A stretch of 64,000 bases of DNA, taken from the NCBI RefSeq assembly GCF_000292915.1, contig NC_018514.1, positions 1,302,001 through 1,366,000 on the forward strand. Direction: 5' to 3'. This DNA comes from Burkholderia cepacia GG4. Its GTDB lineage: Bacteria > Pseudomonadota > Gammaproteobacteria > Burkholderiales > Burkholderiaceae. Positions within the stretch are counted from its first letter, which is position 1. The number at the start of each line of letters is the position of its first letter. The position numbers and the translations under genes were made by a program. The notes under the pieces are model-generated. The model saw only the letters and a program-made list of their open reading frames with translations. It was not told the DNA's origin and did no database searches. This document shows, in pieces, positions 18,206 to 62,272 of this stretch.

Positions 18206-18216
18206 TGCCCGAGCCC

Positions 18217-44241: not shown

Positions 44242-45663
44242 TTAAAATGCGTTGCGGCCGATGAAGCCACGCACGATCGTCATCAGGATGATCTTCATGT
44301 CGAACCAGAAGCTCCAGTTCTGCATGTAGAACAGGTCGAACTTCACGCGCGCGGCCATCGCCTCGACCTTGCGCGTCTCGCCGCGATAACCGTTCACCTG
44401 CGCCCAGCCCGTGATCCCCGGCCGCACGCGATAGCGATACATGTAGCAGTCGATCAGTTGCCGATAGAAGTCGTCATGCTCGATCGCATGGGGACGTGGC
44501 CCGACCACCGACATCTGGCCGAACAGCACGTTGAAGAACTGCGGCAGCTCGTCGAGCGACGTGCGCCGCAGGAACGCACCGACCGGCGTGATGCGCGCAT
44601 CGTTGCGCGAGGCCTGCCGCACGACGCCCGGCTGTGCGCGATGCGCGCGCATCGTCCTGAACTTGAGGATCTGGAACTCGCGCCCGTCGGCGCCCTTGCG
44701 GCGCTGCCTGAACAAGACGGGCCCCGGCGACGACAGCTTCACCGCGATCGCCAGCACCGTCAGCAGCGGCAGCAGCGGGATCAGCACGACGACCGCGAAC
44801 AGCCGGTCGAACGCGAACTTCGCCCATAGCTCCGGCGCGGAGCGCGGCGTGGTCGCGAGGTTGATCGCCGGCATGCCGAGCACGTCGGTCGCCGAACGCT
44901 CGACGACCGCCATCTGCCGCACGTCCGGCAACAGCCGCAGCTCGACGAACTCGTCGCGCAACTCGCGCACGATGCGCTGGATGCGCCACTCGTGCGACAT
45001 CGGCAGCGTGAGCCATACTTCATCGATCTCGCCGCCGCGAATCATGCGCCGCAGCGCGCCCCAATCGTCGATCACCGGCACGCCGCCGATGCCATCCGCC
45101 GCGGCCGCGGCCGGCGCGGCGTCGTCGAATACGCAGGCAGCCGCGAACGCGCCACCCGGCTCGAGCTGCATCCGTTCGATCGCCACGCGTCCGTACGCGG
45201 TCGCGCCGACGACGGCGACCCGCCGCTGCTGCGCGCGCAGGTCGCCGCGCGACAGCGCGAGCGCGCACCACGCCAGCCTGCCGAGCAGCAGCGCCGCATC
45301 GCCGGACAGCACCGTGCGCGCGATCCAGCGCGTCGTGACCGTGCCGCCGCGGTTCATGATCGACATCGTGCCGGCCACCGTCAGCGTGCTCGCGCACATG
45401 ACGGCCACCACCGTGCGCGTCAACGCCGGTCCGCCGCCGTGCGTCGACGCACGGCCACGCACCACGCGCGCGCTGCGCGGCAACAGCGCGACGGTCAGCA
45501 CGCACAGCAATGCGATCGCGCCGCGCTGCGCATCGGACAATTGATGCCACGCGAGCCCCATCGCGGCCTGTGCCGCGAGCGCGCCCGCCAGCACGAGCGC
45601 GGCGTCAGTCGCGGCAAGCGCGGCACGTCGCATCGCATTCGTTCCACCCGACATCGCATGCAT
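44242..45663 (-). CDS. Undecaprenyl-phosphate sugar phosphotransferase (WcaJ/PssY-type initiating transferase)
   Basis: 473 residues. N-terminal membrane helices (about 12-110), a CoA-binding-3-like Rossmann region ('QQRRVAVVGATAYGRVAIERMQL'), a further helix near 280, and the C-terminal sugar-transferase domain with 'KLSSPGPVLFRQRRKGADGREFQILKFRTMRAH', 'SLDELPQFFNVLFGQMSVVGPRP' and 'RYRVRPGITGWAQVNGYRG'. It puts the first sugar-1-phosphate, usually glucose, onto undecaprenyl phosphate for exopolysaccharide assembly. Start taken at ATG 45663 (45654 possible), only 2 bases after the Crp/Fnr gene, so the two are co-transcribed. Confidence 0.9.
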   Translation of the reverse strand: MHAMSGGTNAMRRAALAATDAALVLAGALAAQAAMGLAWHQLSDAQRGAIALLCVLTVALLPRSARVVRGRASTHGGGPALTRTVVAVMCASTLTVAGTMSIMNRGGTVTTRWIARTVLSGDAALLLGRLAWCALALSRGDLRAQQRRVAVVGATAYGRVAIERMQLEPGGAFAAACVFDDAAPAAAAADGIGGVPVIDDWGALRRMIRGGEIDEVWLTLPMSHEWRIQRIVRELRDEFVELRLLPDVRQMAVVERSATDVLGMPAINLATTPRSAPELWAKFAFDRLFAVVVLIPLLPLLTVLAIAVKLSSPGPVLFRQRRKGADGREFQILKFRTMRAHRAQPGVVRQASRNDARITPVGAFLRRTSLDELPQFFNVLFGQMSVVGPRPHAIEHDDFYRQLIDCYMYRYRVRPGITGWAQVNGYRGETRKVEAMAARVKFDLFYMQNWSFWFDMKIILMTIVRGFIGRNAF

Positions 45664-45665
45664 CG

Positions 45666-46448
45666 TCACGCACCGTGCGCGGGGAACCCGCCATGCATCT
45701 CCGGCAGCCGCGGCCGCACCGGCATCGGCCTCGCGACCTCGCGCGAACCGAGCAGCCGGCGATAGTCCGCGCGAATCAGGTCGTAGCATTCGCACGCCTG
45801 CCGTTCGAGACCGTCGCGATCGAGCACGGTGATGCGGCCGCGGCGCTGCCGGATCAACCCGGCGTCCTGCAGATGGCCGGCCGCTTCCGTCACGCCCTCG
45901 CGGCGCACGCCGAGCATGTTGGCGATCGTCTGCTGCGTGACGGCCAGCTCGTCGCCGTCGATCCGGTCATGCGCGAGCAGCAGCCAGCGGCTCAACTGGT
46001 CGCTGACCGAGTGATGCCGGTTGCACAGCGCGCTGCGCGAGATCTGCGCCATGGTCGCCTGGCAGCAGTTCAGCAGCAGCCGGTAAGTCGCGGGCGATCG
46101 TTCGAATTCCGAGCGCATCACGCAGGTCGGTACGCGATAGGCCGTCCCGCCGATGCGGACTTCGACCCGGTTCGACACCGCGGCGCCGCCGACCAGCGTC
46201 GCGAGGCCAACCACGCCTTCGCGGCCGACCACCGCCACCTCGACCATCGCACCATCCTCCATGAGGTGCTGCACCGACATCATGGCGGTCGTCGGGAAGT
46301 GCAGATGACGCATCGGTTCGCCGACCCTGTCGAGCATGCCAGCCTTGATCCTGACCAGCTCGAGGTGCGGTGCGATCGCACGGATGCTGTCCTCCGGGAG
46401 GGCAGCGAGGATGGCATTCGCCGAGTAGCTCGAGTGAAGATGAAGCAT
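45666..46448 (-). CDS. Crp/Fnr-family regulator co-transcribed with the sugar transferase
   Basis: 260 residues: cyclic-nucleotide-binding-like beta roll (about 10-130) and a C-terminal winged helix ('VTQQTIANMLGVRREGVTEAAGHLQDAGLIRQRRGRITV'). The iron-sulphur cysteines of Fnr are absent. Its setting with exopolysaccharide genes, a Crp paralogue and a sigma-54 activator resembles the region of BerA, a c-di-GMP-responsive Crp/Fnr regulator of B. cenocepacia; this or the paralogue at 47336 is the likely counterpart, which I could not decide. Confidence 0.87.
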   Translation of the reverse strand: MLHLHSSYSANAILAALPEDSIRAIAPHLELVRIKAGMLDRVGEPMRHLHFPTTAMMSVQHLMEDGAMVEVAVVGREGVVGLATLVGGAAVSNRVEVRIGGTAYRVPTCVMRSEFERSPATYRLLLNCCQATMAQISRSALCNRHHSVSDQLSRWLLLAHDRIDGDELAVTQQTIANMLGVRREGVTEAAGHLQDAGLIRQRRGRITVLDRDGLERQACECYDLIRADYRRLLGSREVARPMPVRPRLPEMHGGFPAHGA

Positions 46449-47335
46449 GTCTGTATCCCTTTTATCGTCCCTGCCGCGTGCAGCCGCGTCAGCGGAACTC
46501 GTTATCGCGATGCGCATCCGGACGACAACGCGGGTTGCGGCCACAACCCTGAATCCGATCGACCTTCGGCTGCTCGCCGCCGGATCGAATCGGTCGTCCC
46601 GTTTCGACACGCCGGCACGAACAAGCGATTTACGTGCCAATACCCGCTCATCCTTAATATGTGAACCACATCCGATTTAGATCACCGAATAACCGGCCGC
46701 AAAACGGAAAAAAGCGTCTCATTTCCGGACACCCCGGCGCAGCGGTCACAGCGAGGGATTCACCAGATCAATGCCCGCATGCCGCGCAGCACCGTCCACG
46801 CCGACGCGCGCAGTCTTATCGTTCAAATACTTACGACTTGTTTTCAATCGTTTCCGTGACGTCCCACATTACGTCCAGCGCGCGCCCCGCATCCCGAATG
46901 GTCGCTTGGAACTGTCTCAAATCTGAATCGCGAGGTTAATTTTCAGATTTGTAGTCGACCGCACACATCTCATGCAACACATTGATTTTATTGATAAATA
47001 AAAATTCAATATCTCGATTGTCAAATAATGTTCAATGTCTTCTATATTTTTCCGGCACGATGATCAGCGTCGCCCGATTGATTCCCGATCGACGTCCAAT
47101 CATCGCCCCCACAATCCATTCATGGTTCTTAATTCACAAAAAAACCGGAACTTCAAATTCACATAACGTTTTCATTCACACCCGATCGTCAAACTTTGTG
47201 AAGTGACGTAATGCGAGATTATTAAAATTCAATTGCGTGCTAGCCTGTTTCCCGCCATCGGCATACGAATTCCGACGACCACGAATCCGCACGCGCGTCG
47301 CGCGATGTGCGATCGCCACCCTACGAGGATGCGCC
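46449..47335. promoter_or_regulatory. Long AT-rich control region between two divergent Crp/Fnr genes
   Basis: 887 bases. The part from about 46930 to 47230 is far more AT-rich than anything else in the window, with runs such as TTGATTTTATTGATAAATAAAA around 46983. ATTCACA occurs at 47132-47138, 47157-47163 and 47174-47180, and the opposite-facing TTGTGAA at 47196-47202; these half-sites resemble Crp-family targets. No gene is supported here. The low GC suggests a bendable or silencer-bound (H-NS-type) regulatory segment. Confidence 0.5.
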
Positions 47336-48118
47336 GTGACCCACCAGGCCAATGACGCCGTCGCCCACGCGACCGGCATGATCGAGCTTTCCCACAGCTT
47401 CGACGCCAACCGGTTTCTCGCGGCCCTCGACCGCGACCAACGCGCGATGCTGATCGCCAACCTGCAACTCGTTCACCTGAAATCCGGGCAAGTGCTGTGC
47501 GAACCCGGCGAAATGCTGGCCGCCGTCTACCTGCCCGTCACGACCGCGATTTCGCTGCAGTACGTGTCGTCCGCCGGCATGACGCTGGAAGTCGCGCAGA
47601 TCGGCAGCGAGAGCATCGTGTGCGACGACGTGATCGGCGGCAGCGGCCGGATGCCCTGCCGCGCCATCGCATGCCGCGACGGCTTCGTCTATCGGCTCGA
47701 CCGGCGCATATTCGCCACGGCCTTCGACGCGTCACCCGTCATTCGCCATCTGGTGTTCGTCAGCGTGCGGCTGCTGATGGCGCAGGTATCGCAGATCACC
47801 TTCTGCAGTCGTCATCACGTGCTCAAACATCAGTTATGCAGATGGTTCCTGCTCGCGTACGATCGTTCGCGCAGCATCGAGATCCAGGTCACCCACAGCA
47901 TGCTCGCGCAGATGCTCGGCGTACGGCGCGAAACGGTCACGGATGCGGCCGGGGAAATCCAGAAGCTCGGCCTGATCCGCCAGTACCGGAGTTCGATCGA
48001 GCTGGCCGATCTCGGCGGCCTCGAGAAGCTGTCGTGCGGCTGCCGCGCGATCGTGCGCGACGAGATGAAGCGCATCCTGGCGACAGACTCGGGCGTGACG
48101 GCCGCGGCGCGTGCGTGA
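47336..48118 (+). CDS. Second Crp/Fnr-family regulator (paralogue of 45666-46448)
   Basis: 260 residues from a GTG at 47336, preceded by GAGG; this gives the same length as the divergent paralogue. An ATG further upstream (47237) in the same frame has no site. Sensor domain 'MLIANLQLVHLKSGQVLCEPGEMLAAVYLPVTTAISLQY' and helix-turn-helix 'VTHSMLAQMLGVRRETVTDAAGEIQKLGLIRQYRSSIEL' align well with the neighbour. It is the gene just upstream of, and in line with, the aminoacyl-carrier-protein operon, 153 bases away. Confidence 0.87.
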   Translation: MTHQANDAVAHATGMIELSHSFDANRFLAALDRDQRAMLIANLQLVHLKSGQVLCEPGEMLAAVYLPVTTAISLQYVSSAGMTLEVAQIGSESIVCDDVIGGSGRMPCRAIACRDGFVYRLDRRIFATAFDASPVIRHLVFVSVRLLMAQVSQITFCSRHHVLKHQLCRWFLLAYDRSRSIEIQVTHSMLAQMLGVRRETVTDAAGEIQKLGLIRQYRSSIELADLGGLEKLSCGCRAIVRDEMKRILATDSGVTAAARA

Positions 48119-48271
48119 TTCGCGCGGCAGGTCGGCGTGCGCGTGCGACCGGGGTCAGCAGATTGTAGGGTGGCGAACAGAACGCCGTGCCTGCGAATGG
48201 TCTACTGATGCCGGACTGCCGGGGGGACGTCAGCGCGCTGCGCGCGTTCGCCCGAGCGGACGACACCACGC

Positions 48272-48538
48272 ATGCCGGAGCAGCACGTGAAAAACGCAAT
48301 CAGAACCATCCTCAAGCACGTCGCCCATCTCGAAGCAGCGATCGATTCGATCGGTGACGGGGACGACCTTTACGAAGCAGGCCTCTCGTCGCTCGACACG
48401 ATCCAGCTGATGCTCGCGATCGAGAAGCAGTTCAACATCGAGATTCCCGACGAGATGCTGAACCGCAACCTGTTCCGCAGCATCGACGCGCTCGCGGACA
48501 CGATCGCCACCCTGCAACGCGCCGAGCATTCGGCATGA
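48272..48538 (+). CDS. Acyl carrier protein of the amino acid:carrier-protein system
   Basis: 88 residues. 'DDLYEAGLSSLDTIQLMLAIEKQFNIEIPDEML' is a carrier-protein helix II region; Ser40 in 'GLSSLD' is the expected phosphopantetheine site. It is dissimilar from the fatty-acid AcpP, and lies at the head of an operon with a synthetase-like ligase, so its cargo is probably an amino acid. Its stop overlaps the next start by 4 bases. Confidence 0.9.
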   Translation: MPEQHVKNAIRTILKHVAHLEAAIDSIGDGDDLYEAGLSSLDTIQLMLAIEKQFNIEIPDEMLNRNLFRSIDALADTIATLQRAEHSA

Positions 48539-49731
48539 GCACGCTGCTTCCCGAACTCGCGGCCGACGGCGAAGCGCATCGGCTCGACGAGGCCGCGCAC
48601 GCCGTCGCCCAGATCGCCGCGCAGCACGCGGACGCGGTCGATCGCGACGCGCGCTGCCCCGTCGAGGCGATCGAGGCGATGCGGGCACGCCGCCTGCTTG
48701 GCGCGATGGTCCCGACCCCGCTCGGCGGCGCCGGCGCGTCACTCGCGGACGTCGTCTCCGCATGCTCGATCCTCGGCCAGGCCTGTGCGTCGTCGGCAAT
48801 GGTGTTCGCGATGCACCAGATCCAGGTTGCCTGCATCGTCGATCACGCGGCCGACCAGGGCTGGCACCGGCTGTTCCTGCAGCAGCTCGTGCGGCACCAG
48901 TGGCTGCTCGCGTCGGCGACGTCGGAAGACGGCGTCGGCGGCAACCTGCGTGCGAGCCAGTGCGCGCTCGAAAGCAACGGCGGCGAATTCCGGCTGCACA
49001 AGGCCGCACCGACGATCTCGTACGGCGACTACGCGGACGGCATCCTCGCGACCGCGCGCCGCGACGCCGACGCGCCCGCGTCCGAGCAGGTGCTCGTCAC
49101 GCTGCTGCGCGACGGCTATACGCTCACGCGCCGCGGCGAATGGGACACGCTGGGCATGCGCGGCACGTGCAGCAACGGCTTCGTGCTCGACGCGCAGGGC
49201 GCGACCGTGCAATGCCTGCCGGTGCCGTTCGCGCAGATCGCCGAACAGACGATGGTGCCGGTTTCGCACATCCTGTGGGCCGCGGTATGGATCGGGGTCG
49301 CCGGTGACGCATTCCATCGTGCACATCAGTTCTTCCGCGCGCAGGCACGCCAGAGCGATGGTGCGCCGTCGCCGGCGTCGCGACGCATCGCCGAATCGCT
49401 CGCGCTGATGCAGGCGATGCAGGCACGCGTCGACAACGTGCTGCGCCTGTACGCGCGCGCGTCGTCCCGTTCGTGGTCGGCCGGCATGGCCTGGGCCGCC
49501 GAAATCAACACACTGAAGACCTATGTGTCGTCGACGGCGCTCGAGGTCGTGCAGCAGGCGATGATGATCTGCGGGATGGCCGGCTACAAGCACGGCACGC
49601 CGTTCAGCATCGGCCGCCACCTTCGCGACCTGCACGCGGCGCCGCTGATGATCAGCAACGACCGCATCGCCGCCAATACCTCGAGCCTGCTGCTCGCACT
49701 GCGTCCCGCGACGCTGGAGAAACACTCGTGA
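48535..49731 (+). CDS. Acyl-CoA-dehydrogenase-like flavoprotein, probably acting on aminoacyl-carrier protein
   Basis: 398 residues of the acyl-CoA dehydrogenase fold ('RRLLGAMVPTPLGGAGASLADVVSACSILGQACASSAMVFAMHQIQ' near 45-95; 'RLHKAAPTISYGDYADGILATARRD'; 'GMRGTCSNGFVLD'). In this operon the substrate is probably the amino acid held on the carrier protein, as with the flavoproteins that oxidise prolyl carriers in pyrrole biosynthesis. Both ends overlap neighbouring genes by 4 bases. Confidence 0.87.
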   Translation: MSTLLPELAADGEAHRLDEAAHAVAQIAAQHADAVDRDARCPVEAIEAMRARRLLGAMVPTPLGGAGASLADVVSACSILGQACASSAMVFAMHQIQVACIVDHAADQGWHRLFLQQLVRHQWLLASATSEDGVGGNLRASQCALESNGGEFRLHKAAPTISYGDYADGILATARRDADAPASEQVLVTLLRDGYTLTRRGEWDTLGMRGTCSNGFVLDAQGATVQCLPVPFAQIAEQTMVPVSHILWAAVWIGVAGDAFHRAHQFFRAQARQSDGAPSPASRRIAESLALMQAMQARVDNVLRLYARASSRSWSAGMAWAAEINTLKTYVSSTALEVVQQAMMICGMAGYKHGTPFSIGRHLRDLHAAPLMISNDRIAANTSSLLLALRPATLEKHS

Positions 49732-50711
49732 ACGATCGCCTGCCCGTGCCTTCCACCGCTTCCACCGCCCCCGCGCCGTCCGACGCGCCGCTCGACCGCG
49801 CGGGCGTCAATCCGCTGCGCGACGCGCTGATCGATGCGGGCCTGCTGGTGTCGACCGGCATCCAGGGCCTGTTCGGCCGCAGCGAGCGGTTCGAGCGCGT
49901 CGTGGAAGCGCTCGATGCCTTCGTCACGCGGCTCGGTGCCGACCAGCAGGCCGACGTGCTGCGGTTCCCGCCGGCGATGAGCCGGACCGAGTTCGAGCGC
50001 AGCGAATACATGAAGAGCTTCCCGCAGCTCGCGGGCAGCGTGCATGCGTTCGGCGGCGACGAACGGCGCCACCAGCGCCTGCTGCAGTGCCTCGACCGCG
50101 GCGAGGACTGGACCGAGGACCAGAAGCCGACCTACGTCGTGATGACGCCGGCCGCCTGCTATCCGGTCTACCCGGTCGTCGCGCGCGCGGGTGCGCTGCC
50201 CGGCGACGGCCGGATCGTCGACGTGTTCTCGTACTGCTTCCGTCACGAGCCGTCGCTCGACCCGACCCGCATGCAGCTGTTCCGGATGCGCGAGTACGTC
50301 CGGATCGGCACGCCCGAGCAAATCGTCGCGTTCCGCGAGACCTGGATGGAGCGCGGCACGCGGATGATCGACGCGCTGCGCCTGCCGAACACGATCGATC
50401 TCGCGAACGATCCGTTCTTCGGGCGCGGCGGCAAGATCGTCGCGAACAGCCAGCGCGAGCAGAACCTGAAGTTCGAGCTGCTGATCCCGATCGAGCACGA
50501 CGACCGGCAGACCGCGTGCCTGAGCTTCAACTACCACATGGATCACTTCGGGCTGCTGTGGGACATCCGCACCGCGACGGGCGACGTCGCGCACACGGGC
50601 TGCGTCGGCTTCGGCCTCGAACGGCTGACGCTCGCGCTGTTCCGCCACCACGGCCTCGACATCGACGCGTGGCCGCGCGAAGTCCGCGACGTGCTGTGGA
50701 GCACGCGATGA
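49728..50711 (+). CDS. Amino acid:carrier-protein ligase, class II aminoacyl-tRNA-synthetase homologue
   Basis: 327 residues from GTG 49728, which overlaps the preceding stop (GTGA). It is a trimmed class II synthetase core related to atypical SerRS: motif 2 'YCFRHEPSLDPTRMQLFRMREYV' (about 169-191) and motif 3 'VGFGLERLTLALF' (293-305), but no tRNA-binding domain. Cys144, Glu189 and Cys292 are placed like the zinc ligands of the Bradyrhizobium amino acid:carrier-protein ligase as I remember them, a fixed 13-residue offset. That family activates glycine or alanine with ATP and loads a carrier protein; the amino acid used here cannot be read from the sequence. Confidence 0.9.
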   Translation: MNDRLPVPSTASTAPAPSDAPLDRAGVNPLRDALIDAGLLVSTGIQGLFGRSERFERVVEALDAFVTRLGADQQADVLRFPPAMSRTEFERSEYMKSFPQLAGSVHAFGGDERRHQRLLQCLDRGEDWTEDQKPTYVVMTPAACYPVYPVVARAGALPGDGRIVDVFSYCFRHEPSLDPTRMQLFRMREYVRIGTPEQIVAFRETWMERGTRMIDALRLPNTIDLANDPFFGRGGKIVANSQREQNLKFELLIPIEHDDRQTACLSFNYHMDHFGLLWDIRTATGDVAHTGCVGFGLERLTLALFRHHGLDIDAWPREVRDVLWSTR

Positions 50712-51763
50712 ACTTCGTGTCCCGCGACGGCGAGGACGTGTCGTTCGACGACGTGCGCCACCGCGCACGCCACTACCGGCCACACCCGCTGCACAGCCAG
50801 GAAATGGTCTGGAAACAGACCAACTGTTACGTCGACATGTGGCTCGAGGTGCTCAGGTGGTGGGGCCTCAATCCGTATGCGGCGCTGCCGTTTACGATCG
50901 CGCTCGATTTCGAGGGCGACCAGTTCACGTTCTTCAAGTTTCCGCACGACGAACTGGAGCGGCTCTACGGAATCGTCGTGCAGGAACACTCGATCTACGA
51001 ATCGCTCGACCAGCACATCGAGACGCAGGTCGCGCGCGGTCACCTGATGATCGTCGAGGTCGACGCGTGGTACCTGCCCGACACGCGCGGCAGCAGCTAC
51101 CGCACACAACATACGAAGACGACGATCGGCATCGACGCGATCGATCGGGTACGACACCAGATCGGCTACTTCCACAACAGCAGCTATTACGTGGCCGAGG
51201 ATTTCGACTACGACGGCCTCGTCGGCGGCAGCTCGCCGATGCCGCTGCCGCCCTATGTGGAGTGCGCGAAGCGACGTTTCGCGCCGCTCGACGAGCGCGC
51301 GCTGTGCGAAGCGTCGCTCGCCGCGCTGCAGCATCACTTGCGGCGCCTGCCGGTCGTCAATCCGGTCTCGGCGTTCCGGCGCCAGTTGCAGATCGATGCG
51401 AAATCGCTCGCCGATTCACCGCTCGAACGCTTCCACGCGTACTCGTTCAATTCGGTACGGCAACTCGGCGCGAACTTCGAACTGTTCGGCCACTACACGC
51501 GCTGGCTGCAGGCAAGCGGCTGCGTCGGCCCGTTCGCCGAACTCCGCACCGCGTGCGATCGCATTGCGTCCGAGGCGATGGTGCTGGAATTCCGGCTCGC
51601 GCGGGCCTGCGCGCGCGGCAAGGAAGAACGCGGCGACGGGACGCTCGAAGCGATCGAAGCGGCTTATTCCGATCTCGTCGACTGCGCACGGCAGATCACG
51701 TCGTCGCGGCAGCACGCGACCCCCGTTCGCATCGACGCGGCACCCGTGCCGCTGATGCGGTGA
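50708..51763 (+). CDS. DUF1839 protein, possible BtrH-like carrier-protein acyltransferase
   Basis: 351 residues, cytosolic. 'QTNCYVDMWLEVLRWWGLNP' puts Cys40 at the start of a helix; 'VEVDAWYLPDTRGSSYRTQHTKTTIGIDAID' supplies Asp119, His135 and Asp143. This Cys...D-x-W/Y-YLP...H...G-x-D order resembles the N-terminal domain of BtrH, which moves an acyl group from a carrier protein to an aminoglycoside. The family name DUF1839 and the BtrH likeness are from memory and pattern; transfer of the aminoacyl group is inferred. Start ATG 50708 overlaps the ligase stop. Confidence 0.75.
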   Translation: MNFVSRDGEDVSFDDVRHRARHYRPHPLHSQEMVWKQTNCYVDMWLEVLRWWGLNPYAALPFTIALDFEGDQFTFFKFPHDELERLYGIVVQEHSIYESLDQHIETQVARGHLMIVEVDAWYLPDTRGSSYRTQHTKTTIGIDAIDRVRHQIGYFHNSSYYVAEDFDYDGLVGGSSPMPLPPYVECAKRRFAPLDERALCEASLAALQHHLRRLPVVNPVSAFRRQLQIDAKSLADSPLERFHAYSFNSVRQLGANFELFGHYTRWLQASGCVGPFAELRTACDRIASEAMVLEFRLARACARGKEERGDGTLEAIEAAYSDLVDCARQITSSRQHATPVRIDAAPVPLMR

Positions 51764-54237
51764 CGCGCGCGCCCGCGGCGCTCGCGTGGTCGATGCTCGC
51801 AACGGCGGCGGGCGCCGCGCGCGAGCCGCGCGAGCTCCCCGGCGCTGCCGGCTGGATCGCGGCGCCCGTGCCCGGCACGGTCGCGCAGGCGCTCGTGCTG
51901 GCCGGCCGGCCCGACGATACGGCTTCGCTCGACGAGCGCGACCACTGGTATCGCGTCGAACTGCACGGACACGGACCGCGCATGCTGCGGTTTCACGGCC
52001 TCGCGACGCTCGCCGACGCCTGGCTCGACGACACGCCGATCCTGCACTCGGACAGCATGTTCGTCGCGCACGACGTTCCCGTGTCGCTCGACGGCACACA
52101 CCGGTTGACCGTCTGCTTTCGCGCACTCGCGCCGCACCTGCGCGACGCGCGCGCACCGCGCCGCGCCCGCTGGCGCACGCGGCTTGCGGAACCGGCGACG
52201 CTGCGCACCGTGCGCACGTCGCTGCTCGGACACATGCCGGGCTGGTTTCCGCGCTGCGTGCCGACCGGTCCGTGGCGGCCCGTCGACGTGCTCGACCCGG
52301 CCGACGGCCCCGTTCTGGTTCATTGCGACCTGCATGCACGCGTCGACGGCGACACCGGTTGGCTCGACGCGGAACTCGCGTTCGCCGCGCCGCTGTCCGA
52401 CACGTTCGCGGCCCGGCTGTCGTGCGGCGAGCACCACGCGACGCTCGAACGCAGCGGCGCCGATCGCCTGCACGCCACCGTCGCGGTGCCCAACGTGCGC
52501 CGCTGGTGGCCGCACACACACGGCGAGCCGGTGCTCTACGAGATCGCGCTGCACACCGGCGCCGACCGGCGGCCGCTCGGCGTGACGGGTTTCCGCACGA
52601 TCGAGCAGGACACCGGCGCCGACGGTAACGGGTTCGGGCTGCGCGTGAACGGTGTGCCGGTGTTCTCGCGCGGTGCATGCTGGAGCAGTGCCGCGCCGCT
52701 CGCGCTGCACGCGGACGACGCGACCTATGGCCGCCTGCTCGGGCAGGCGCGCGACGCCGGCTTCAACATGATTCGCGTCGGCGGCACGATGACCTACGAG
52801 GCCGACGCATTCCACGCCTGGTGCGACCGGCTCGGGCTGCTGGTCTGGCAGGATTTCATGTTCGCGAACTTCGACTACGCGCTCGACGATCGCGCGTTCG
52901 CGGACGCCGTCGACCGCGAAGCCGAACAGTTCCTCACGCGGCACCGGGCATCGCCGTCGCTCGCGGTGCTGTGCGGCGGCAGCGAGATCGCGCAGCAGGC
53001 GGCGATGTCGGGGCTCGGGCCAAAGCAGCGCTTCCTCGAACTGACGGCAGACCGGCTCGCTGGCCACGCGGCGGCCCGACGGCCGGATGTCCCCTACGTC
53101 CCCGATTCGCCCGGCGGCGGAACGCTGCCGTTCACGCCGCGCGAGCGCGTGTCGCACTACTACGGCGTCGGCGCGTATCTGCGCCCGCTCGGCGACGCGC
53201 GCCGCGCCGACGTGCGTTTCGCGAGCGAATGCCTCGCGTTCGCGAACGTGCCGTGCGATGCAACGCTGGCCGACCTCGGCTGGCCGGGTGTCCACGAGCC
53301 GCGCTGGAAGGCGGCGGTGCCGCGCGACCCCGGCGCGTCGTGGGATTTTGACGACATTCGCGACCACTATCTGCGCACGCTGTACGAGGTGGTGCCCGAG
53401 CACTTGCGGCGCGAAGACCCGTCGCGCTATTTCGAGCTGTCGCGCGCGGCGATTGCCGACCTGATGCGGGACACCCTCTCCGAATGGCGGCGCGCCGGCT
53501 CGCGCTGCGCCGGCGCGCTCGTCTGGCAGTTCCAGGACGTGATGCCGGGCGCCGGATGGGGCTTGATCGATGCGGCGCATCGGCCGAAATCGGCGTGGTA
53601 TGCGCTGCGCCAGGTGCTTCAGCCGGTGCAGGTCCTGGTGGTCGACGAAGGTCTGAACGGGCTCGACGTGCACGTGATCAACGAACGCGCGGTGCCGCTG
53701 TCGGCCGCCGTCGAGCTGCTCGCGCTGCGCGACGGCCGCACGCCGGTCGCGCGGGCCGGCGGTCCGGTCCGGATCGCCGCACACGACGCGGTGCGGCTCG
53801 GCTCGGCCGAATTGCTCGGCCGCTTCTTTGACTGGACCTACGCGTATCGCTTCGGGCCGTGCGAGCACGACACCGTCGTCGCGACGCTGCGCTCCGAGGA
53901 CGGCACGCTGCTGTCACAGGCGTTCTACTTTCCGTCCCGCACGCATCCGGCCGTGTTCGCGCGCCGCGAACCCGGGATCGAGGCATGCGTGTCGCGCACC
54001 GGCGACACCTGGCACGTCGACATCGACACGCGTCATGTCGCGCGTCACGTGCAGATCGACGCGCCGGGCTTCGTGCCGCGCGACGACTGGTTCCATCTCG
54101 CGCCCGGTACGCCCGCACGCGTCGCGCTCGTGCCGCTGGAACACGCGGGCGCACATTCCGGCGCGGGCACGCCGCCGACGGTCGACATCCGCGCGGTCAA
54201 CGCGGCGCGAACCGTGCGCGCGACGCCGGCTGTCTGA
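51760..54237 (+). CDS. Glycoside hydrolase family 2-like protein (beta-mannosidase type)
   Basis: 825 residues from GTG 51760 (overlapping the DUF1839 stop). No signal peptide, so cytosolic. N-terminal sugar-binding-like beta domain (about 40-150), an immunoglobulin-like domain, and a TIM barrel from about 310 ('VNGVPVFSRGACWSSAAPL', 'ARDAGFNMIRVGGTMTYEADAFHAWCDRLGLLVWQDFMFANFDY'). Probable acid/base Glu409 in 'VLCGGSEIAQQ' and nucleophile Glu490 in 'RFASECLAF'. The usual WxGNNE motif is altered to CGGSE, so activity could differ, for example transglycosylation. Confidence 0.82.
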   Translation: MTRAPAALAWSMLATAAGAAREPRELPGAAGWIAAPVPGTVAQALVLAGRPDDTASLDERDHWYRVELHGHGPRMLRFHGLATLADAWLDDTPILHSDSMFVAHDVPVSLDGTHRLTVCFRALAPHLRDARAPRRARWRTRLAEPATLRTVRTSLLGHMPGWFPRCVPTGPWRPVDVLDPADGPVLVHCDLHARVDGDTGWLDAELAFAAPLSDTFAARLSCGEHHATLERSGADRLHATVAVPNVRRWWPHTHGEPVLYEIALHTGADRRPLGVTGFRTIEQDTGADGNGFGLRVNGVPVFSRGACWSSAAPLALHADDATYGRLLGQARDAGFNMIRVGGTMTYEADAFHAWCDRLGLLVWQDFMFANFDYALDDRAFADAVDREAEQFLTRHRASPSLAVLCGGSEIAQQAAMSGLGPKQRFLELTADRLAGHAAARRPDVPYVPDSPGGGTLPFTPRERVSHYYGVGAYLRPLGDARRADVRFASECLAFANVPCDATLADLGWPGVHEPRWKAAVPRDPGASWDFDDIRDHYLRTLYEVVPEHLRREDPSRYFELSRAAIADLMRDTLSEWRRAGSRCAGALVWQFQDVMPGAGWGLIDAAHRPKSAWYALRQVLQPVQVLVVDEGLNGLDVHVINERAVPLSAAVELLALRDGRTPVARAGGPVRIAAHDAVRLGSAELLGRFFDWTYAYRFGPCEHDTVVATLRSEDGTLLSQAFYFPSRTHPAVFARREPGIEACVSRTGDTWHVDIDTRHVARHVQIDAPGFVPRDDWFHLAPGTPARVALVPLEHAGAHSGAGTPPTVDIRAVNAARTVRATPAV

Positions 54238-54276: not shown

Positions 54277-55668
54277 TCAGTCGGACGAGCCGGTCCCTCT
54301 CGGCCGCTCGATCCCGTACGCCTCCATCCAGCGATAGAGCGTCGCGCGCGACACGCCGAGCTCGCGCGCGGAAGCCGCGACGCGCCCGCGGGTGCGCAGC
54401 AACGCAGTCTCGATCGCTTCGCGCTCGATCGACTTGCGGATGTCCGCGACAGACGGCGACGCCGCGTCGAGACAATATTCGAGTTCGAGGTCCTGTGCGG
54501 TAATCAGGCGCCCTTCCGTCATCACGACGGCGCGGCGCACACGGTTGATCAGTTCGCGCACATTGCCCGGCCAGTCATGCTTGTAGAGCGCGGTAATCGC
54601 GTCCGTCGAGAAGCCGCGCACGCGATGGCGCGCGTCGCCGCGAAAGCGCTCGAGCATGTGGTCCGCAAGCAGTTCGATGTCCTTGCCGCGCGCGCGCAGC
54701 GGCGGCTGGTCGATGCGCATCACGCAGAGCCGGTGGAACAGATCCGCGCGAAACCGCCCTTCTTCCATCGCTTCGCGCAGGTCGACGTGCGTCGCGGAGA
54801 CGATCCGCACGTCGACCGGCACCGGATTGCTGCCGCCGAGACGATGGATCGCGCGCTCCTGCAGGAAGCGCAGCAGGCTCGCCTGGCTCTCGTGCGGCAG
54901 GTCGCCGATTTCATCGAGCAGCAGCGTGCCGCCGTTCGCGGCCTCGACGTAGCCGATCTTGCGCGCGTTCGCGCCAGTAAACGCGCCGCGCTCGTAGCCG
55001 AACAGTTCCGATTGCAGCAGGTGTGGCGGAATCGCGCCGCAGTTGACCGCGACGAACGGGCCGTTGCGCCGTTCCGAATGACGATGGATCGCGACGGCCG
55101 TCAGCTCCTTGCCGGTTCCCGTCTCGCCGAACACGAACACCGGTGCGTCGGTGCGCGCGAAGCGCCGCACTGTATCGAACAGCCGCAGCATCGCGCTGCA
55201 GGTGCCGACGATGCCGTTCTCCTGCGATTCGAGCCGTTCGCGATCGCGCGCGAACAGGCATTCCATGCCGTACGCGTGGCCGACGGTATCGGCGATCCGC
55301 TGATGCGACGCGGGCAACGTGATGTAGTCGAAGCAATAGTCGCGCAACAGTGCGCGCACGTTCGGGGAGGCAGTCTGGCCGGTCTCGACGAGCGCGACCC
55401 ACACGACATCACGCATCGACGCGCAGGTGGACGCGATGCTGCCGATCGCGTCGGCGTGGCCACCGCTCAGGTCGAGAATGCCGCAGGTGATTTCGCCGGA
55501 GGTGTCGCGCAGCTCGCTGGCGTGCGCGACGATCGCCACTTTCCAGTCGCGTCGCGCGAGTTCCTTGCGAAGCATCACCGACGGCGACTGGGTCCAGTAG
55601 ATCAGAGGACGCTGCCCGCCAGTCCTCCCCCCGCCGGCGCTCTTATCGCGCGCGATTGGCATAGTCAT
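54277..55668 (-). CDS. Sigma-54-dependent activator with degenerate receiver domain (VpsR/BerB-like)
   Basis: 463 residues. The N-terminal ~130 residues are receiver-like but lack the acidic pair at the first strand ('LIYWTQS') and have 'YITLPAS' where receivers have Lys-Pro, so phosphorylation is unlikely. The AAA+ domain has Walker A 'GETGTGKE', 'GAFTGANARKIGY' for sigma-54 contact, Walker B 'GGTLLLDEIGDL' and the R-finger region 'RFRADLFHRL'; a Fis-type helix-turn-helix ends the protein ('VAASARELGVSRATLYRWMEAYGIERP'). Beside exopolysaccharide genes it recalls VpsR and BerB, which respond to c-di-GMP. It diverges from the GNAT-manC operon. Confidence 0.9.
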   Translation of the reverse strand: MTMPIARDKSAGGGRTGGQRPLIYWTQSPSVMLRKELARRDWKVAIVAHASELRDTSGEITCGILDLSGGHADAIGSIASTCASMRDVVWVALVETGQTASPNVRALLRDYCFDYITLPASHQRIADTVGHAYGMECLFARDRERLESQENGIVGTCSAMLRLFDTVRRFARTDAPVFVFGETGTGKELTAVAIHRHSERRNGPFVAVNCGAIPPHLLQSELFGYERGAFTGANARKIGYVEAANGGTLLLDEIGDLPHESQASLLRFLQERAIHRLGGSNPVPVDVRIVSATHVDLREAMEEGRFRADLFHRLCVMRIDQPPLRARGKDIELLADHMLERFRGDARHRVRGFSTDAITALYKHDWPGNVRELINRVRRAVVMTEGRLITAQDLELEYCLDAASPSVADIRKSIEREAIETALLRTRGRVAASARELGVSRATLYRWMEAYGIERPRGTGSSD

Positions 55669-56825: not shown

Positions 56826-57410
56826 ATGGAATGGCATTGTTGTGAATTCGCACATCTGAGCGCCGTCGATCTCTACGCAATCCTGCGCGCGCGCAACGCC
56901 GTGCTGGTGGTCGAGGATGCGCACACGCATCTCGACATCGACGGCAAGGATGCGCACGCGCTGCACGTGTACGCACGATTGCTCACCGGCGACACCGCGG
57001 AAGTCGTCGCATACGCGCGCGTCCTGCCCGGCGACGACGTCGATCCGGACATCGTGATCGACAAGGTACTGACGAGCGAGGCATGCCGCGACGACCGCAC
57101 CCTCGAGCAGCTGATCGAGCGCGCGCTCACGGCCGCGCAGGCCGCCTGGCCCGACACGTCGGTGCGCACGCACGTTCCCGCGCAGCGGCAGGCCTTCTAC
57201 AAACGCTTTGGATTCCGCAAGGCCTACGGACCGTATCTCGAACAGGGCGCACCGTTCATCGGGCTCGTCCGGCCGACAGACCGTGCCGCCGGCGCGCTCA
57301 GGCAGCTGTTGTCCCGGGCCGTCTCGACGCCCCGGTCGCGAAACGACGACGTACGCGCCGACGGCCGCATGCACACCCGGCTGCCCGCCGATACCGGAGC
57401 CAATCGATGA
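56826..57410 (+). CDS. GNAT-family N-acetyltransferase, ElaA-like
   Basis: 194 residues from ATG 56826, chosen because GAGGA lies 7 bases upstream and because ElaA proteins begin with this 'MEW...LYAILRARNAVLVVEDAHTHLDIDGKD' pattern. The acetyl-CoA region includes 'AYARVLPGDDVDPDIVIDKVLTSEACRDDRTLEQLIERAL' and 'RQAFYKRFGFRKAYGPYLEQGAPFIGLVRP'. The typical Arg-x2-Gly-x-Gly/Ala loop is replaced by 'TSEACRDDRT', so acetyl-CoA binding may be impaired. Overlaps the manC gene by 4 bases; the link to polysaccharide synthesis is by coupling only. Confidence 0.82.
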   Translation: MEWHCCEFAHLSAVDLYAILRARNAVLVVEDAHTHLDIDGKDAHALHVYARLLTGDTAEVVAYARVLPGDDVDPDIVIDKVLTSEACRDDRTLEQLIERALTAAQAAWPDTSVRTHVPAQRQAFYKRFGFRKAYGPYLEQGAPFIGLVRPTDRAAGALRQLLSRAVSTPRSRNDDVRADGRMHTRLPADTGANR

Positions 57411-59005
57411 CCGCCACCCTTCGTCCGGTTCCCGAACCCGACTTGCCCCGCATCCTGCCCGTCATTCTCGCCGGCGGCTCGGGCACGCGGCTCTGGCCGC
57501 TGTCGCGCGAGCAGTATCCGAAGCAGCTGATCGAGCTGACCTCGAACGAATCGCCGCTGTCGGCGACTGCGCGCCGCCTGAACGGCATCGCGAACGCGTC
57601 GCTCGGGGACACGCTGCTGCTGGTATGCGGCGAACAGCATCGAATCATGAGCGCCGCACAAGTGGTCGGCCGCGCAGCACCAGCCCGCATCCTGCTCGAA
57701 CCGGCTGCACGCAATACCGCACCGGCGCTCACACTCGCCGCGCTCGACGCCAGCGCGCTCACCGACGATCCCGTGCTCGCGGTCATGCCGGCCGACCACG
57801 TGATCGGCGACATCGCCGCGTTCCAGGAAGCAATCGGGCGCGCGGCACGCTACGCGCAGGAAGGCGCGATCGTCACGCTCGGCGTGCTGCCGCGCCGCGC
57901 CGAAACCGGCTACGGCTACATTCAAGTCGGCGAACCGCGCGCGGGCCGCCTCGGCGGCCAGGGCGGCTACACGATCGGGCGTTTCGTCGAGAAGCCGAAT
58001 GCCGCGCTCGCCGAGCGCTACCTGCATTCGGGCGACTACTGGTGGAACAGCGGGATCTTCGTCACGCGCGCATCGATCTGGCTGAAGGCGATCCGCGCGC
58101 TCGCGCCCGACATCCATGCCGCCTGCGACACCGCGTGGCGCGCGGGTATCGCCGAGGATCCGTTCTTCCGGGTCGACGCGACGGCCTTCGACGCATGTCC
58201 GTCCGACTCGATCGACTACGCGGTGATGGAGCGCCTCGCACAACACAGCGAACTCGGCATCGAAGGCATCGTGGTGCCGCTGTCTGCCGGCTGGTCGGAC
58301 GTCGGCACCTGGGATGCGATCTGGGAAATCATGCCGAAGGATGACCAGGGCAACGTCGCGCGCGGCCCGATCGTGTTCGAGGATACGCAGGACAGCCTGG
58401 TGCGCTCGGAGGGCCGGCTCATCGCGTGCGTCGGGATGAAGGACGTCGTCGTGATCGAGACGCCCGATGCGGTACTGGTCGCGAACAAGCACGATGTGCA
58501 ACGCGTGAAGAACATCGTCGCGCGGCTGAAAACCGACCGTCGGCCGCAGGCGAGCGAGCACCGCAAGGTGCAGCGGCCGTGGGGGCATTACGACTCGATC
58601 GATCTCGGCGAGCGGTTCCAGGTGAAGCGGATCGTCGTCGAACCCGGCAAGCAGTTGTCTCTGCAGATGCACTATCACCGTGCCGAGCACTGGATCGTCG
58701 TGCGTGGCACCGCGAAGGTCACGCGCGGCCACGAAACGTTCCTGCTCAGCGAGAACGAATCGACCTACATCGCGGTCGGCGAGGTCCATCGTCTCGAGAA
58801 CCCCGGCCGGATTCCGCTCGAGATCATCGAGGTGCAGTCGGGCGACTATCTCGGCGAAGACGATATCGTCCGGTTCGACGATCAATACGGACGTCCGGTC
58901 GTCGAGACGGCGCAAGCGCGACCGCGGCCGTCAGGCGCACCGCTCGCTCCACGCGAACCCGGCGAGCCGCAACAGGAAGCGGCGCAACGCGACGTCGTTC
59001 GATAG
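57407..59005 (+). CDS. Bifunctional mannose-1-phosphate guanylyltransferase/mannose-6-phosphate isomerase (ManC/AlgA-type)
   Basis: 532 residues. N-terminal nucleotidyltransferase with 'ILAGGSGTRLWPLSREQYPKQLIEL' (about 18-42) and 'GRFVEKPN'; C-terminal cupin isomerase domain with 'VQRPWGHYDSIDLGERFQVKRIVVEPGKQLSLQMHYHRAEHWIVV' (about 388-432) holding the metal histidines. It makes GDP-mannose for exopolysaccharide. About 50 residues longer than usual because of a Pro/Arg/Glu-rich tail. Translationally coupled to the GNAT gene. Confidence 0.93.
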   Translation: MTATLRPVPEPDLPRILPVILAGGSGTRLWPLSREQYPKQLIELTSNESPLSATARRLNGIANASLGDTLLLVCGEQHRIMSAAQVVGRAAPARILLEPAARNTAPALTLAALDASALTDDPVLAVMPADHVIGDIAAFQEAIGRAARYAQEGAIVTLGVLPRRAETGYGYIQVGEPRAGRLGGQGGYTIGRFVEKPNAALAERYLHSGDYWWNSGIFVTRASIWLKAIRALAPDIHAACDTAWRAGIAEDPFFRVDATAFDACPSDSIDYAVMERLAQHSELGIEGIVVPLSAGWSDVGTWDAIWEIMPKDDQGNVARGPIVFEDTQDSLVRSEGRLIACVGMKDVVVIETPDAVLVANKHDVQRVKNIVARLKTDRRPQASEHRKVQRPWGHYDSIDLGERFQVKRIVVEPGKQLSLQMHYHRAEHWIVVRGTAKVTRGHETFLLSENESTYIAVGEVHRLENPGRIPLEIIEVQSGDYLGEDDIVRFDDQYGRPVVETAQARPRPSGAPLAPREPGEPQQEAAQRDVVR

Positions 59006-59083
59006 GTGCGCGCCGCTCGCGGCGGTGCGCTCGCCTTGATTCGCAGGCGGCGCGCGGCCCGTGCGACACCGCGTGACACCATT

Positions 59084-60373
59084 TCAATCGATGCCGCGCT
59101 GCGACCAGCGCGCCTGCCTGACGGTCTCGCGCACGCGCGGCAGCAACGACGTATCCGCGCCGACCGCGTCGGGCTCGGTCGACAGCGACTGACGCGCCGC
59201 CGTACACGACGCCCCTTTCAACTGGGCCGCCGATGGCCGCGATGGCCGGCCGCTCGTGCAGTCCTGCCGGGGACCGACCCGCACCGGCATGCCGCCGATG
59301 CCCGACAGCCGGTTGTCCGCGAGCCGCACACCGGACACGTTTCCCCACAAGCGAATGCCGTCGAATCGCGCGTTCGACACGCGGTTGCCGGTCACGGTCA
59401 CGCGCGTCACCGCCCCCGACCAGGTGCTGACCTCGATCGCCGCCTGCTGCGTGACCGGACGCACGTCGGTCCGGCCCGTCGCGGTCTGGATCTCCGCGAT
59501 CACGTTGTGCTCGATGCGGATGTCGGACGCGCCGGATGTCCCGTTGCTGTCCTCCTGCGCGACGAGAATCCCCGAGCTGACCTGCACGTTGCGCACGATG
59601 TTGTTCGCGATGGTGACGTCCGCGCCGCCGACCACCGTGATGCCGCGCCCCCACGGGTTGCCTTCGAGCGAGTTGCCGGTAATCAGCACATTGCGTGTCA
59701 ATACGCGTTCCGACCGGTAGCTCACGACGGCAATCATGTCGTCGCCCGTGCCGCGCACGACATTGCCCTGCACGAGCACGTTGTGCGCACCGTGGGTCAT
59801 GTGAATGCCGTCCGCGAGCGTCGCCAGCACGTCGTTGCCGACGATCGCGACATCCGCGCCGCCGAACACGAAGATGCCGGCGCCGGCGCCGCCGTCGATC
59901 ACGTTGTCGAGCACCTGCACGCCGCGCCCCGTCACCTCGACCTTCGTCGAACCCGGCGTCGTGAGGCGCGCCGTGCCGGTTCCCGTGAGCCGGAACCCGA
60001 CGATCGTCGTGCCGTCGCCGCGCATCTCGATCGTCTGGTCGTCCGGGACGGTCGCGATCAGCGTCGCGCCGTAGCCCGACAGCACGACATGCGGCTGCCG
60101 CACGATCAGCGACCGACCGACGACATACCGGCCCGGCGCGAATACCAGTCGCTGGCCCGGCTGCAGTGCGTCCAGCGTGCGTTGCAGCGCGTCGGCCTGG
60201 TCGGCCGCGTCGGGAGCGGGACGAACGTACGCGTCCGGTACGTTCGCATGCAGCGCGCCCGGTGCCGGCGTGCCGGACGCTGCCACGGCGAACGCCTGCC
60301 ACGACAGCACGCCTGCCATGCACATGCCTGCAATCACCGCGCACGCGCGGAACGGGCGTTGCGATCTACGCAT
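59084..60373 (-). CDS. Secreted right-handed parallel beta-helix protein (polysaccharide-associated)
   Basis: 429 residues with a signal peptide ('CAVIAGMCMAGVLSWQAFAVAA-S'). The body consists of about twelve beta-helix turns ('GVQVLDNVIDGGAGAGIFVFGGADVAIVGNDVLATLADGIHMTHGAHNVLVQGNVV...'), as in pectate lyases and alginate epimerases/lyases of the AlgG/AlgJ kind. No catalytic residues can be assigned. Its position between ManC and glycosyltransferase genes suggests work on the polysaccharide in the periplasm. Confidence 0.83.
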   Translation of the reverse strand: MRRSQRPFRACAVIAGMCMAGVLSWQAFAVAASGTPAPGALHANVPDAYVRPAPDAADQADALQRTLDALQPGQRLVFAPGRYVVGRSLIVRQPHVVLSGYGATLIATVPDDQTIEMRGDGTTIVGFRLTGTGTARLTTPGSTKVEVTGRGVQVLDNVIDGGAGAGIFVFGGADVAIVGNDVLATLADGIHMTHGAHNVLVQGNVVRGTGDDMIAVVSYRSERVLTRNVLITGNSLEGNPWGRGITVVGGADVTIANNIVRNVQVSSGILVAQEDSNGTSGASDIRIEHNVIAEIQTATGRTDVRPVTQQAAIEVSTWSGAVTRVTVTGNRVSNARFDGIRLWGNVSGVRLADNRLSGIGGMPVRVGPRQDCTSGRPSRPSAAQLKGASCTAARQSLSTEPDAVGADTSLLPRVRETVRQARWSQRGID

Positions 60374-60790
60374 CTCGAATCGTTTCCCTGGGATGACATC
60401 ACGCGCGCCAGTCTGCGCACGCCCGCGGCGCGGCCGGAGCGAACGACGCGAACCGTCCGATTAGATCATTCGATCCGGCGGGGCTTCGGTGCGTCAGCAG
60501 ACCAATGCATCGTGCCTGCGCCCCGCGATGCGAGGCGCTGTTCGAGGTGCCGTTCGACGACGCGTCGCACGCCCGCGAGCAAATCGCCGAACGGTACGCT
60601 CGCGAACCGAGTGCCGATTGACGATGCGTATCATCGCCACCATACGACGCGGCCGTGCTCCGGCAGCGGCGCAAGCCAGCGGCGGCGCCCTGTCCAGTGC
60701 CGCGGGCCGACGTGTATCGCACCGGCCGGCGCACCACACGCGACGCCGGTCCTCCGGATCGCCCGCTCTTCGCTCGTCCAGCCCCCGTTC
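60374..60790. promoter_or_regulatory. Divergent gap between beta-helix protein and glycosyltransferase genes
   Basis: 417 bases with no supportable coding sequence. It presumably carries two divergent promoters. No clear palindrome or -24/-12 element is visible. Confidence 0.3.
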
Positions 60791-62268: not shown

Positions 62269-62272
62269 ATGA
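62213..62272 (+). CDS. Possible 19-residue leader peptide coupled to the glycosyltransferase gene
   Basis: AGGAG at 62197-62201 precedes ATG 62213; the frame encodes 19 residues, rich in Pro, Arg and His, and stops at TGA 62270-62272, overlapping ATG 62269 by the ATGA pattern. Inside it, CCCATCG (62250-62256) and CGATGGG (62260-62266) form a hairpin three bases before ATG 62269. This could couple or throttle translation of the next gene. Short frames arise by chance, so it is tentative. Confidence 0.3.
   Translation: MNRMSRPPDSPATHRHDGR

Follow-up and report, generated by a model that had tools for sequence, protein, structure and literature searches.

A conserved five-gene operon beside the Bep exopolysaccharide regulator genes of Burkholderia cepacia GG4, with a predicted role in carrier-bound aminoacyl transfer

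We analyzed a stretch of 64,000 nucleotides from Burkholderia cepacia GG4, hereafter called the window (contig C2:1302001-1366000, from a genome of 6.47 Mb in two contigs). It harbors an operon of five genes coding for a carrier protein, a flavoprotein, a ligase resembling tRNA synthetases, a DUF1839 protein and a protein related to glycoside hydrolases of family 2 (GH2) (Table 1). An initial annotation, made from the letters alone, had placed the five genes in this order on the + strand between positions 48272 and 54237, and domain matches confirmed the genes, their order and their limits. Adjacent genes overlap by 4 bp (ATGA or GTGA) at all four junctions, and a four-base overlap in each gene pair is a mark of translational coupling. 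All five families were found in 87 of 97 loci, including one locus where the DUF1839 gene lies apart (L167) and four with two DUF1839 genes (L148, L155, L159 and L064). In these 87 loci, the upstream gene ends with an overlap-type xTGA in 81, 33, 67 and 53 cases for the four successive junctions. An alignment of the region upstream of the operon comprised 22 rows (the window and 21 loci), and its conserved block persists in part in B. singularis and Paraburkholderia ginsengisoli. No second copy of the 20 fixed bases of this element was found in the 78 kb scanned, the best other match having 7 mismatches.

Table 1. Coordinates of the operon and of neighboring features in the window
Feature	Position	Strand	Match or basis
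Upstream block, candidate promoter, conserved element at ~48160-48225	48119..48271	+	Alignment of 22 rows
Aminoacyl carrier protein, Ser40 phosphopantetheine site	48272..48538	+	PF00550, NF005480
Flavoprotein, acyl-CoA-dehydrogenase fold, predicted modifier of the carrier-bound aminoacyl group	48535..49731	+	PF02771/PF00441
Amino acid:[carrier protein] ligase, class II synthetase-like, GTG start in the 4-bp overlap	49728..50711	+	NF005479
DUF1839 protein, predicted papain-like aminoacyl transferase (Cys40; His135, Thr139, His156)	50708..51763	+	PF08893
GH2 beta-mannosidase-like protein, probably cytosolic, Glu409 and Glu490 kept	51760..54237	+	PF22666
BerB-like sigma-54 activator with VpsR domain, position of Bcam1342	54277..55668	-	PF00158, PF20161
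CRP/FNR regulator in the position of BerA (Bcam1349); listed TTG start probably too far upstream	45666..46640	-	PF13545
Second CRP/FNR regulator, position of Bcam1348	47237..48118	+	PF13545
Mannose-1-phosphate guanylyltransferase, position of Bcam1340; limits include extra 5' sequence	57083..59005	+	PF01050, PF00483 in 57383-59002
WcaJ-type undecaprenyl-phosphate glucose phosphotransferase	44242..45795	-	TIGR03023, 471 bits (cut-off 410.75)

The ligase scored 554.1 bits against NF005479, the model of amino acid--[acyl carrier protein (ACP)] ligases (cut-off 357). Because its match to the seryl-tRNA synthetase (SerRS) model is limited to positions 308 to 503 out of 518, the N-terminal tRNA-binding part is absent, which bears out what the initial annotation had said of it. 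The closest solved relatives are 4h2w (amino acid--[acyl-carrier-protein] ligase 1; E 8e-94) and 3mey (Bll0957; E 3.5e-91). Where these two differ, by what we take to be a swapped carrier-recognition helix, the window ligase is nearer 4h2w. C144, E189 and C292 are each present in at least 97% of 106 relatives, and they align, with the same spacing, with Cys131, Glu176 and Cys279 of Bll0957, presumably its three zinc ligands. The carrier protein scored 43.9 bits against PF00550 and 145.5 bits against NF005480 (cut-off 72), and its best solved relatives are chain C of 4h2w and 2jq4 (Atu2571), both with E values of ~1e-17. At least 97% of 102 relatives share its Ser40, already pointed out in the earlier annotation. 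Loading of an amino acid on the carrier protein by the ligase would thus be the predicted first reaction, and this prediction is well supported by homology to the Bll0957 and Atu2571 families.

Ligases of this kind have lost tRNA charging, and glycine, alanine and serine are among the amino acids that they load, according to a 2022 review that still calls their role unknown (PMC9437257). In Bradyrhizobium, bll0957 and the acyl-CoA dehydrogenase gene bll0958 bear adjacent locus tags and are both raised in a phaR mutant (PMC10888616). The family was first linked to non-ribosomal peptide synthesis (Mocibob et al. 2010; PMC2922099), but it is highly improbable that the ligase of the window feeds such a peptide or acts on tRNA, given the loss of tRNA aminoacylation stated in the 2022 review, the missing tRNA-binding part and the absence of condensation and peptide-synthetase domains from the five operon proteins in Pfam searches. 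A protein of the alanine dehydrogenase/transhydrogenase type is encoded 7 kb from the operon (39748-41268, +); a link between it and alanine supply is speculation.

The flavoprotein surely belongs to the acyl-CoA dehydrogenase fold family, as judged from its matches to PF02771 and PF00441, with Acyl-CoA_dh_1 scoring above Acyl-CoA_dh_2 in Pfam. The initial annotation had the amino acid oxidized on the carrier protein with a loss of 2 Da; a plain 2-Da oxidation appears doubtful. A phmmer search with the single sequence put DnmZ first (E 3.6e-14), presumably a nitrososynthase, followed by dehydrogenases and oxygenases with similar scores. When a profile built from 23 relatives was used, the dehydrogenases 7p98 (E 2.7e-27) and 9w60 (E 4.1e-24) came out on top, followed by 3m9v and 4kcf, both of which we take to be KijD3, and by DnmZ, and the prolyl-ACP dehydrogenase 4irn was matched as well (E 3.8e-15). 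The catalytic Glu of canonical acyl-CoA dehydrogenases, in the C-terminal loop, presumably corresponds to residue 373 of the flavoprotein. In the ungapped profile alignment to 7p98 this residue is Ile, within a motif conserved in 103 sequences (M372-I373-x-N375-D376-R377-I378), and 7p98 itself has Thr there; the canonical glutamate thus seems to be replaced. One alignment, to FadE3 with a gap of three residues, places the conserved Asp376 near the Glu position, and the RD...M stretch of the flavoprotein aligns without gaps to DnmZ and 3m9v. Since the Ile373 and Asp376 alignments and the search rankings conflict, we filed the protein neither as a dehydrogenase nor as an oxygenase.

A true carrier-protein dehydrogenase, yielding a dehydro- or iminoacyl thioester (-2 Da), is quite possible, if short of probable, and as it concerns one step only it is compatible with any overall reading of the operon. 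The ranking of 7p98 and 9w60 by profile, the match to 4irn, the order of the Pfam scores and the gapped FadE3 alignment speak for it, whereas Ile373 in the ungapped alignment, the first rank of DnmZ by single sequence and the ungapped alignment of the RD...M stretch with DnmZ and 3m9v speak against it.

The DUF1839 protein scored 418.2 bits against PF08893 (cut-off 22.5). A 2023 survey counts this family among papain-like proteins, with a C-(T/S)-H triad, and speculates that it takes part in the acyl-CoA-dependent processing of glycans (PMC10318531). Among 101 relatives, Cys40 is present in 95, and His135 and His156 are present in all. In five operon copies Cys40 is changed to Arg or Gln, and the same five have Thr139 changed to Cys; they come from Cupriavidus (L148, L155 and L159) and from two genomes of one genus (L055 and L064). 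A second DUF1839 gene with Cys40 is found in each of these five genomes, which are all the genomes seen with two DUF1839 genes. The sixth copy without Cys40 belongs to a decayed operon (L161), and three other Cupriavidus operon copies (L113, L119 and L123) keep Cys40. The predicted active site is supported by the joint change of Cys40 and Thr139 in the five copies from genomes with a duplicate. Compared with a profile of nine BtrH_N proteins, the YLP...H stretch of the DUF1839 protein falls in register with a score of 23.7, a weak and only suggestive similarity (shuffled sequences: mean, 13.7; standard deviation, 2.4; 1 of 150 as high; 15 segments of other operon proteins: 10.7 to 20.5). In that alignment the catalytic His would be His135, at odds with the triad of the survey. 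The last part of the scheme put forward earlier, transfer of the amino acid with the DUF1839 protein as candidate transferase, is favored indirectly by the published prediction, the joint change and the similarity to BtrH. In all, loading is supported by homology and transfer by such indirect arguments, and the 2-Da oxidation between them is the doubtful part.

The GH2-like protein matched PF22666 with 46 bits, and its closest solved relative is the beta-mannosidase 5n6u (E 4.6e-41). Its catalytic residues E409 and E490, aligned with the beta-mannosidase 2vjx, are kept in at least 97% of 88 relatives. An Asn before the acid/base Glu is a hallmark of GH2; 2vjx has it, and the window protein has Ser408 in its place, which suggests an unusual substrate. 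Conservation starts at residue 10, which would argue against a cleaved signal.

We then looked at the distribution of the operon in 398 genomes of the phylum and 274 of the class (the window's own included). DUF1839 was found in 16 phylum genomes and a ligase above the cut-off in 28, and the ligase gene lies directly upstream of a DUF1839 gene in 16 of the 16 DUF1839-positive genomes. Three class genomes have DUF1839, counting that of the window. The stretches around the ligase gene were fetched for 27 of the 28 phylum genomes, the 28th being the window's own, and for two class genomes. The flavoprotein gene adjoins the ligase gene in all 29 (27 phylum, 2 class). The order flavoprotein, ligase, DUF1839, GH2 was found in 17 of the fetched loci (15 phylum, 2 class), headed by the carrier protein gene in 16; in the other (L066) the contig starts inside the operon. 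The five-gene order occurs in 13 genera of this set. Twelve genomes have an above-cut-off ligase and no DUF1839, and we took their loci as the Bradyrhizobium type: all 12 keep the flavoprotein, 10 have a carrier gene in divergent orientation, and no GH2 gene was found in their fetched stretches. DUF1839 and GH2 thus behave as one added module, as they are absent together where the flavoprotein and, in 10 of the 12, the carrier stay.

A further set, the named loci, consists of the best 80 of at least 560 relatives found with the DUF1839 profile in a collection of named genomes, and sampling was thus by DUF1839. The exact five-gene order is present in 67 of them. Paraburkholderia xenovorans LB400 (L126) and Azospirillum brasilense (L160) are among the carriers of the complete set of five genes. 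In three others a second DUF1839 gene accompanies the full order, two are truncated where their contigs end, and one has lost the operon copy of DUF1839 and keeps a separate one; the remaining seven are taken up below. The conservation of the operon is beyond chance. The DUF1839 protein of the window shares 82 to 91% identity with its counterparts in many Burkholderia species, presumably members of the cepacia complex for the most part.

A subgroup of ligase relatives below the cut-off (101 to 175 bits) also occurs in 16 of the 398 phylum genomes, and both the flavoprotein and DUF1839 are absent from the eight stretches fetched around them (L081-L088). Mycetohabitans endofungorum (L111, genome G665) has two above-cut-off ligase genes in a genome of 3.3 Mb. 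In four loci from two genera (L052, 11651-13761; L053; L057; L059), a radical-SAM protein and a protein resembling class II lysyl-tRNA synthetase (LysRS) are encoded near the operon; we take them to be a pair of the EF-P-modifying EpmB/EpmA type, Pfam having been run on those of L052.

The operon sits between berB and berA, the genes for regulators of the Bep exopolysaccharide locus, with ManC and export genes beyond. Published work assigns Bcam1330-1341 to bepA-L, with ManC as Bcam1340, a COG2153 acyltransferase as Bcam1341 and BerA as Bcam1349 (PMC3584217), and identifies BerB as Bcam1342 (PMC5552954); both BerA and BerB respond to cyclic di-GMP (c-di-GMP) (PMC3584217, PMC5552954). Six locus tags separate berB from berA in strain H111 (I35_5193, I35_5200; PMC9684580), and there are likewise six genes between the BerB-like and BerA-like genes of the window. 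A B. cenocepacia locus (L095) is collinear with the window, with pieces 79 to 87% identical. On the BerB side, a protein with no Pfam match occupies the position of Bcam1341, between the activator and the mannose-1-phosphate guanylyltransferase, and an acyltransferase-3 protein, a Wzc-type kinase, a Wza-type exporter and a tandem alpha/beta-hydrolase are encoded beyond the window.

This placement recurs in the genus. DUF1839 was found in 56 of 65 genus genomes, and a BerB at least 77% identical was found in 54 of these 56 versus none of the nine negatives, whose best relatives reach 60%. BerB lies within 8 kb in 53 of the 54, and the two DUF1839-positive genomes without it (G714 and G721) are assemblies of 830 and 1100 contigs. 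Among the named loci, 65 of 80 have WcaJ- or ManC-like genes within ~10 kb. The initial annotation had overlooked the surroundings of the operon, and the location in a c-di-GMP-controlled exopolysaccharide locus makes a polysaccharide the likeliest acceptor.

The tandem alpha/beta-hydrolase is another recurrent neighbor. It is encoded near the operon in 10 of the 17 phylum and class loci and in 19 of the 80 named loci, the latter count being a lower bound with flanks of ~10 kb, but in none of the 12 loci without DUF1839 and none of the 8 weak-ligase loci. In Burkholderia it lies 11 to 18 kb from BerB in five of the five stretches fetched there. The tandem hydrolases of L056 and L061 matched both models of exosortase A (XrtA)-associated hydrolases, 1 and 2, below the cut-offs, with both domains in one protein here. 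L053 has a single open frame (15372-18698) that codes for both the tandem hydrolase and a polysaccharide-flippase-type domain (PF13440), and L052 has a frame of about that length (956-4267; 1103 amino acids).

Several other features of these surroundings were observed. The two CRP/FNR regulators are paralogous and divergently transcribed (45666-46640, -; 47237-48118, +), and a search by tag for Bcam1348, the position of the second, yielded no paper. A sigma-54-like site with one mismatch (46625-46639, -) immediately precedes the probable start of the BerA-like gene, such matches being at chance level in the window; an RpoN site has been reported for berA (PMC5552954). A right-handed beta-helix protein (59087-60373, -; L169:1087-2373) is encoded opposite a 948-amino-acid frame on the + strand (59006-61852). 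The only domain of that frame is a C-terminal glycosyltransferase 2, and its front is probably non-coding.

Taken together, the operon is a real, conserved line for carrier-bound aminoacyl transfer that is probably functional, with a glycan as the most likely acceptor. Our preferred reading, to which we assign a probability of about 0.5, is the aminoacylation of exopolysaccharide units, in the manner of the Dlt and Alm systems, by a five-gene line made of unrelated parts. The synthetase-like ligase would activate a small amino acid, glycine or alanine from its family, with ATP and load it on the carrier protein. The flavoprotein would alter the carrier-bound aminoacyl group, by oxygenation or dehydrogenation, and the papain-like DUF1839 protein would transfer it, at the cytosolic face, to a sugar hydroxyl of an exopolysaccharide unit, giving an ester. 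The GH2-like protein might trim or check that glycan, which is the weakest step, and ester groups may be cleaved off or relocated by the tandem alpha/beta-hydrolase, whose gene lies in another part of the locus. In its most specific form, the proposal would be that the flavoprotein oxygenates the N or alpha C of glycine or alanine, that the papain-like transferase attaches the residue by an ester bond to Bep-type and related proteobacterial polymers ahead of their export, and that it was lost from the published Bep in alkaline extraction; in all these details the proposal is doubtful.

Aminoacyl esters do not survive alkali. As Bep was extracted with 0.3 M NaOH and its structure solved in NaOD (PMC7084887), ester-linked amino acids would have been lost, and the published structure therefore neither supports nor excludes them. 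The insolubility of Bep is ascribed by its authors to a rigid chain (PMC7084887); as a conjecture, the loss of charged groups would be an alternative cause. The repeat reported there, Gal-Glc-Gal-Man, has no amino sugar, which favors an ester over an amide. This bears on a rather unlikely alternative, in which the amino acid would be amide-bonded to an amino group of a cell-surface sugar, for example of lipopolysaccharide, by an amide-forming DUF1839 protein, with the flavoprotein as a monooxygenase. Such a reaction was predicted in section 17 of PMC2922099, and PMC10318531 describes BtrH, the suggested relative of DUF1839, as a carrier protein:aminoglycoside acyltransferase. The polysaccharide of the adjoining B. 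cenocepacia locus offers no amino sugar in its published repeat (PMC7084887), so that the acceptor would have to be another, amino sugar-containing one.

It is also conceivable, although improbable, that the operon makes a diffusible small molecule, such as a glycosylated or N-oxidized amino acid of a mycothiol-like kind, and that it shares only regulation with the polysaccharide locus. A GH2-like protein with no evident secretion signal and DnmZ as first match of the flavoprotein would fit a metabolite made of sugar and amino acid, and a neighboring glycosyltransferase changes while the operon stays. However, the five operon genes include no exporter or resistance gene, and the operon is repeatedly accompanied by polysaccharide genes in several genera.

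A number of points weigh against exopolysaccharide aminoacylation as we propose it. Each step of the line is deduced from sequence. The similarity between DUF1839 and BtrH is weak (probability, 5.6%, with 1 of 150 shuffles as high), and the DUF1839 profile found no significant relative among solved structures, one chain, a cysteine protease, being matched with an E value of 0.73. A screen of ~6000 transposon mutants for loss of wrinkling is reported to have given ten insertions in six bep genes, none of those named lying in the operon (PMC3584217); the operon is thus not needed for wrinkling, or the screen was unsaturated. A local scan for a promoter element common to the operon and the polysaccharide genes found none, and sigma-54 sites, sought for the operon promoter, were at chance level in the window (32 found versus 35 expected), so that coregulation is a candidate idea only.

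Other adverse points come from the distribution of the genes. Only 24 of the 54 BerB-positive genomes have the glycosyltransferase of 62269-63450 close to BerB; the polymer thus varies between species while the operon stays, and we rejected the idea of the same polymer in every Burkholderia carrier. Outside the Burkholderiales the polysaccharide link is thinner, with a WcaJ-like gene in 3 of the 17 phylum and class loci and other polysaccharide genes seen only among ten hand-picked proteins, and 9 of the 80 named loci have none of the five window marker families nearby. Seven of the 80 keep DUF1839 after loss of the ligase; six of these have also lost the flavoprotein, and in all seven the GH2 gene is broken or gone. 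The ligase was found nowhere in five of the six such genomes searched, and the sixth has it elsewhere. We considered and set aside a DUF1839 protein working without the ligase, in view of the state of GH2 in those loci, the sampling by DUF1839 and the five genomes without ligase.

The proposed line can be compared with known systems. BtrH, which forms an amide, would share with DUF1839 the proposed papain-like fold and transfer from a carrier to a sugar-containing acceptor, with weak sequence similarity. DltA has another ligase fold and AlmE is not known to be synthetase-like; the ligase of the window is synthetase-like rather than an adenylation ligase of the DltA/AlmE type, which places the operon outside the Dlt and Alm systems. 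In the Dlt system (DltA-DltC-DltB-DltD), a small amino acid is likewise loaded on a carrier with ATP and then esterified to an envelope polymer, the acceptors being teichoic acids, which receive D-alanyl esters (PMC3783018). It differs by the membrane proteins DltB and DltD and by having no flavoprotein or glycosidase. AlmEFG of Vibrio is likewise a Gram-negative system with a carrier protein and a transferase, forming glycyl esters (PMC12930378), but its acceptor is lipid A and AlmG has a lysophospholipid acyltransferase domain (PMC3783018). The operon may thus work like Dlt and Alm, with a ligase, a transferase and a flavoprotein of other families. The ligases Bll0957 of Bradyrhizobium and Atu2573 of Agrobacterium belong to the same family as that of the window, whose neighboring carrier protein is related to Atu2571, and from the gene order and a 2010 note (PMC2922099) we infer that Atu2571-2575 is of the five-gene type.

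The logic of loading, redox step and transfer is not new, as that 2010 study had seen the neighborhood and predicted the ligation of an amino acid to the amine of a surface sugar by Atu2574, together with a redox step that it guessed to be a monooxygenation (PMC2922099). The papain-like assignment of DUF1839 has likewise been published (PMC10318531). In open-licence literature searched by the operon gene tags (Bcam, H111 and Atu), we found only PMC2922099, and later open-licence literature yielded no report of the operon product. What is new here is the placement at Bep, BerA and BerB with genus-wide co-occurrence, the ester proposal with its argument of loss in alkali, the link with the hydrolase, the coupled change in the DUF1839 active site and the doubt about dehydrogenation.

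The tie to a c-di-GMP-controlled biofilm polysaccharide gives the carrier-protein ligases a named candidate acceptor. If the proposal is true, Gram-negative bacteria would modify the sugars of their biofilms much as Gram-positive bacteria D-alanylate their teichoic acids, using an enzyme set for biofilm-sugar aminoacylation that would have been taken in part from translation.

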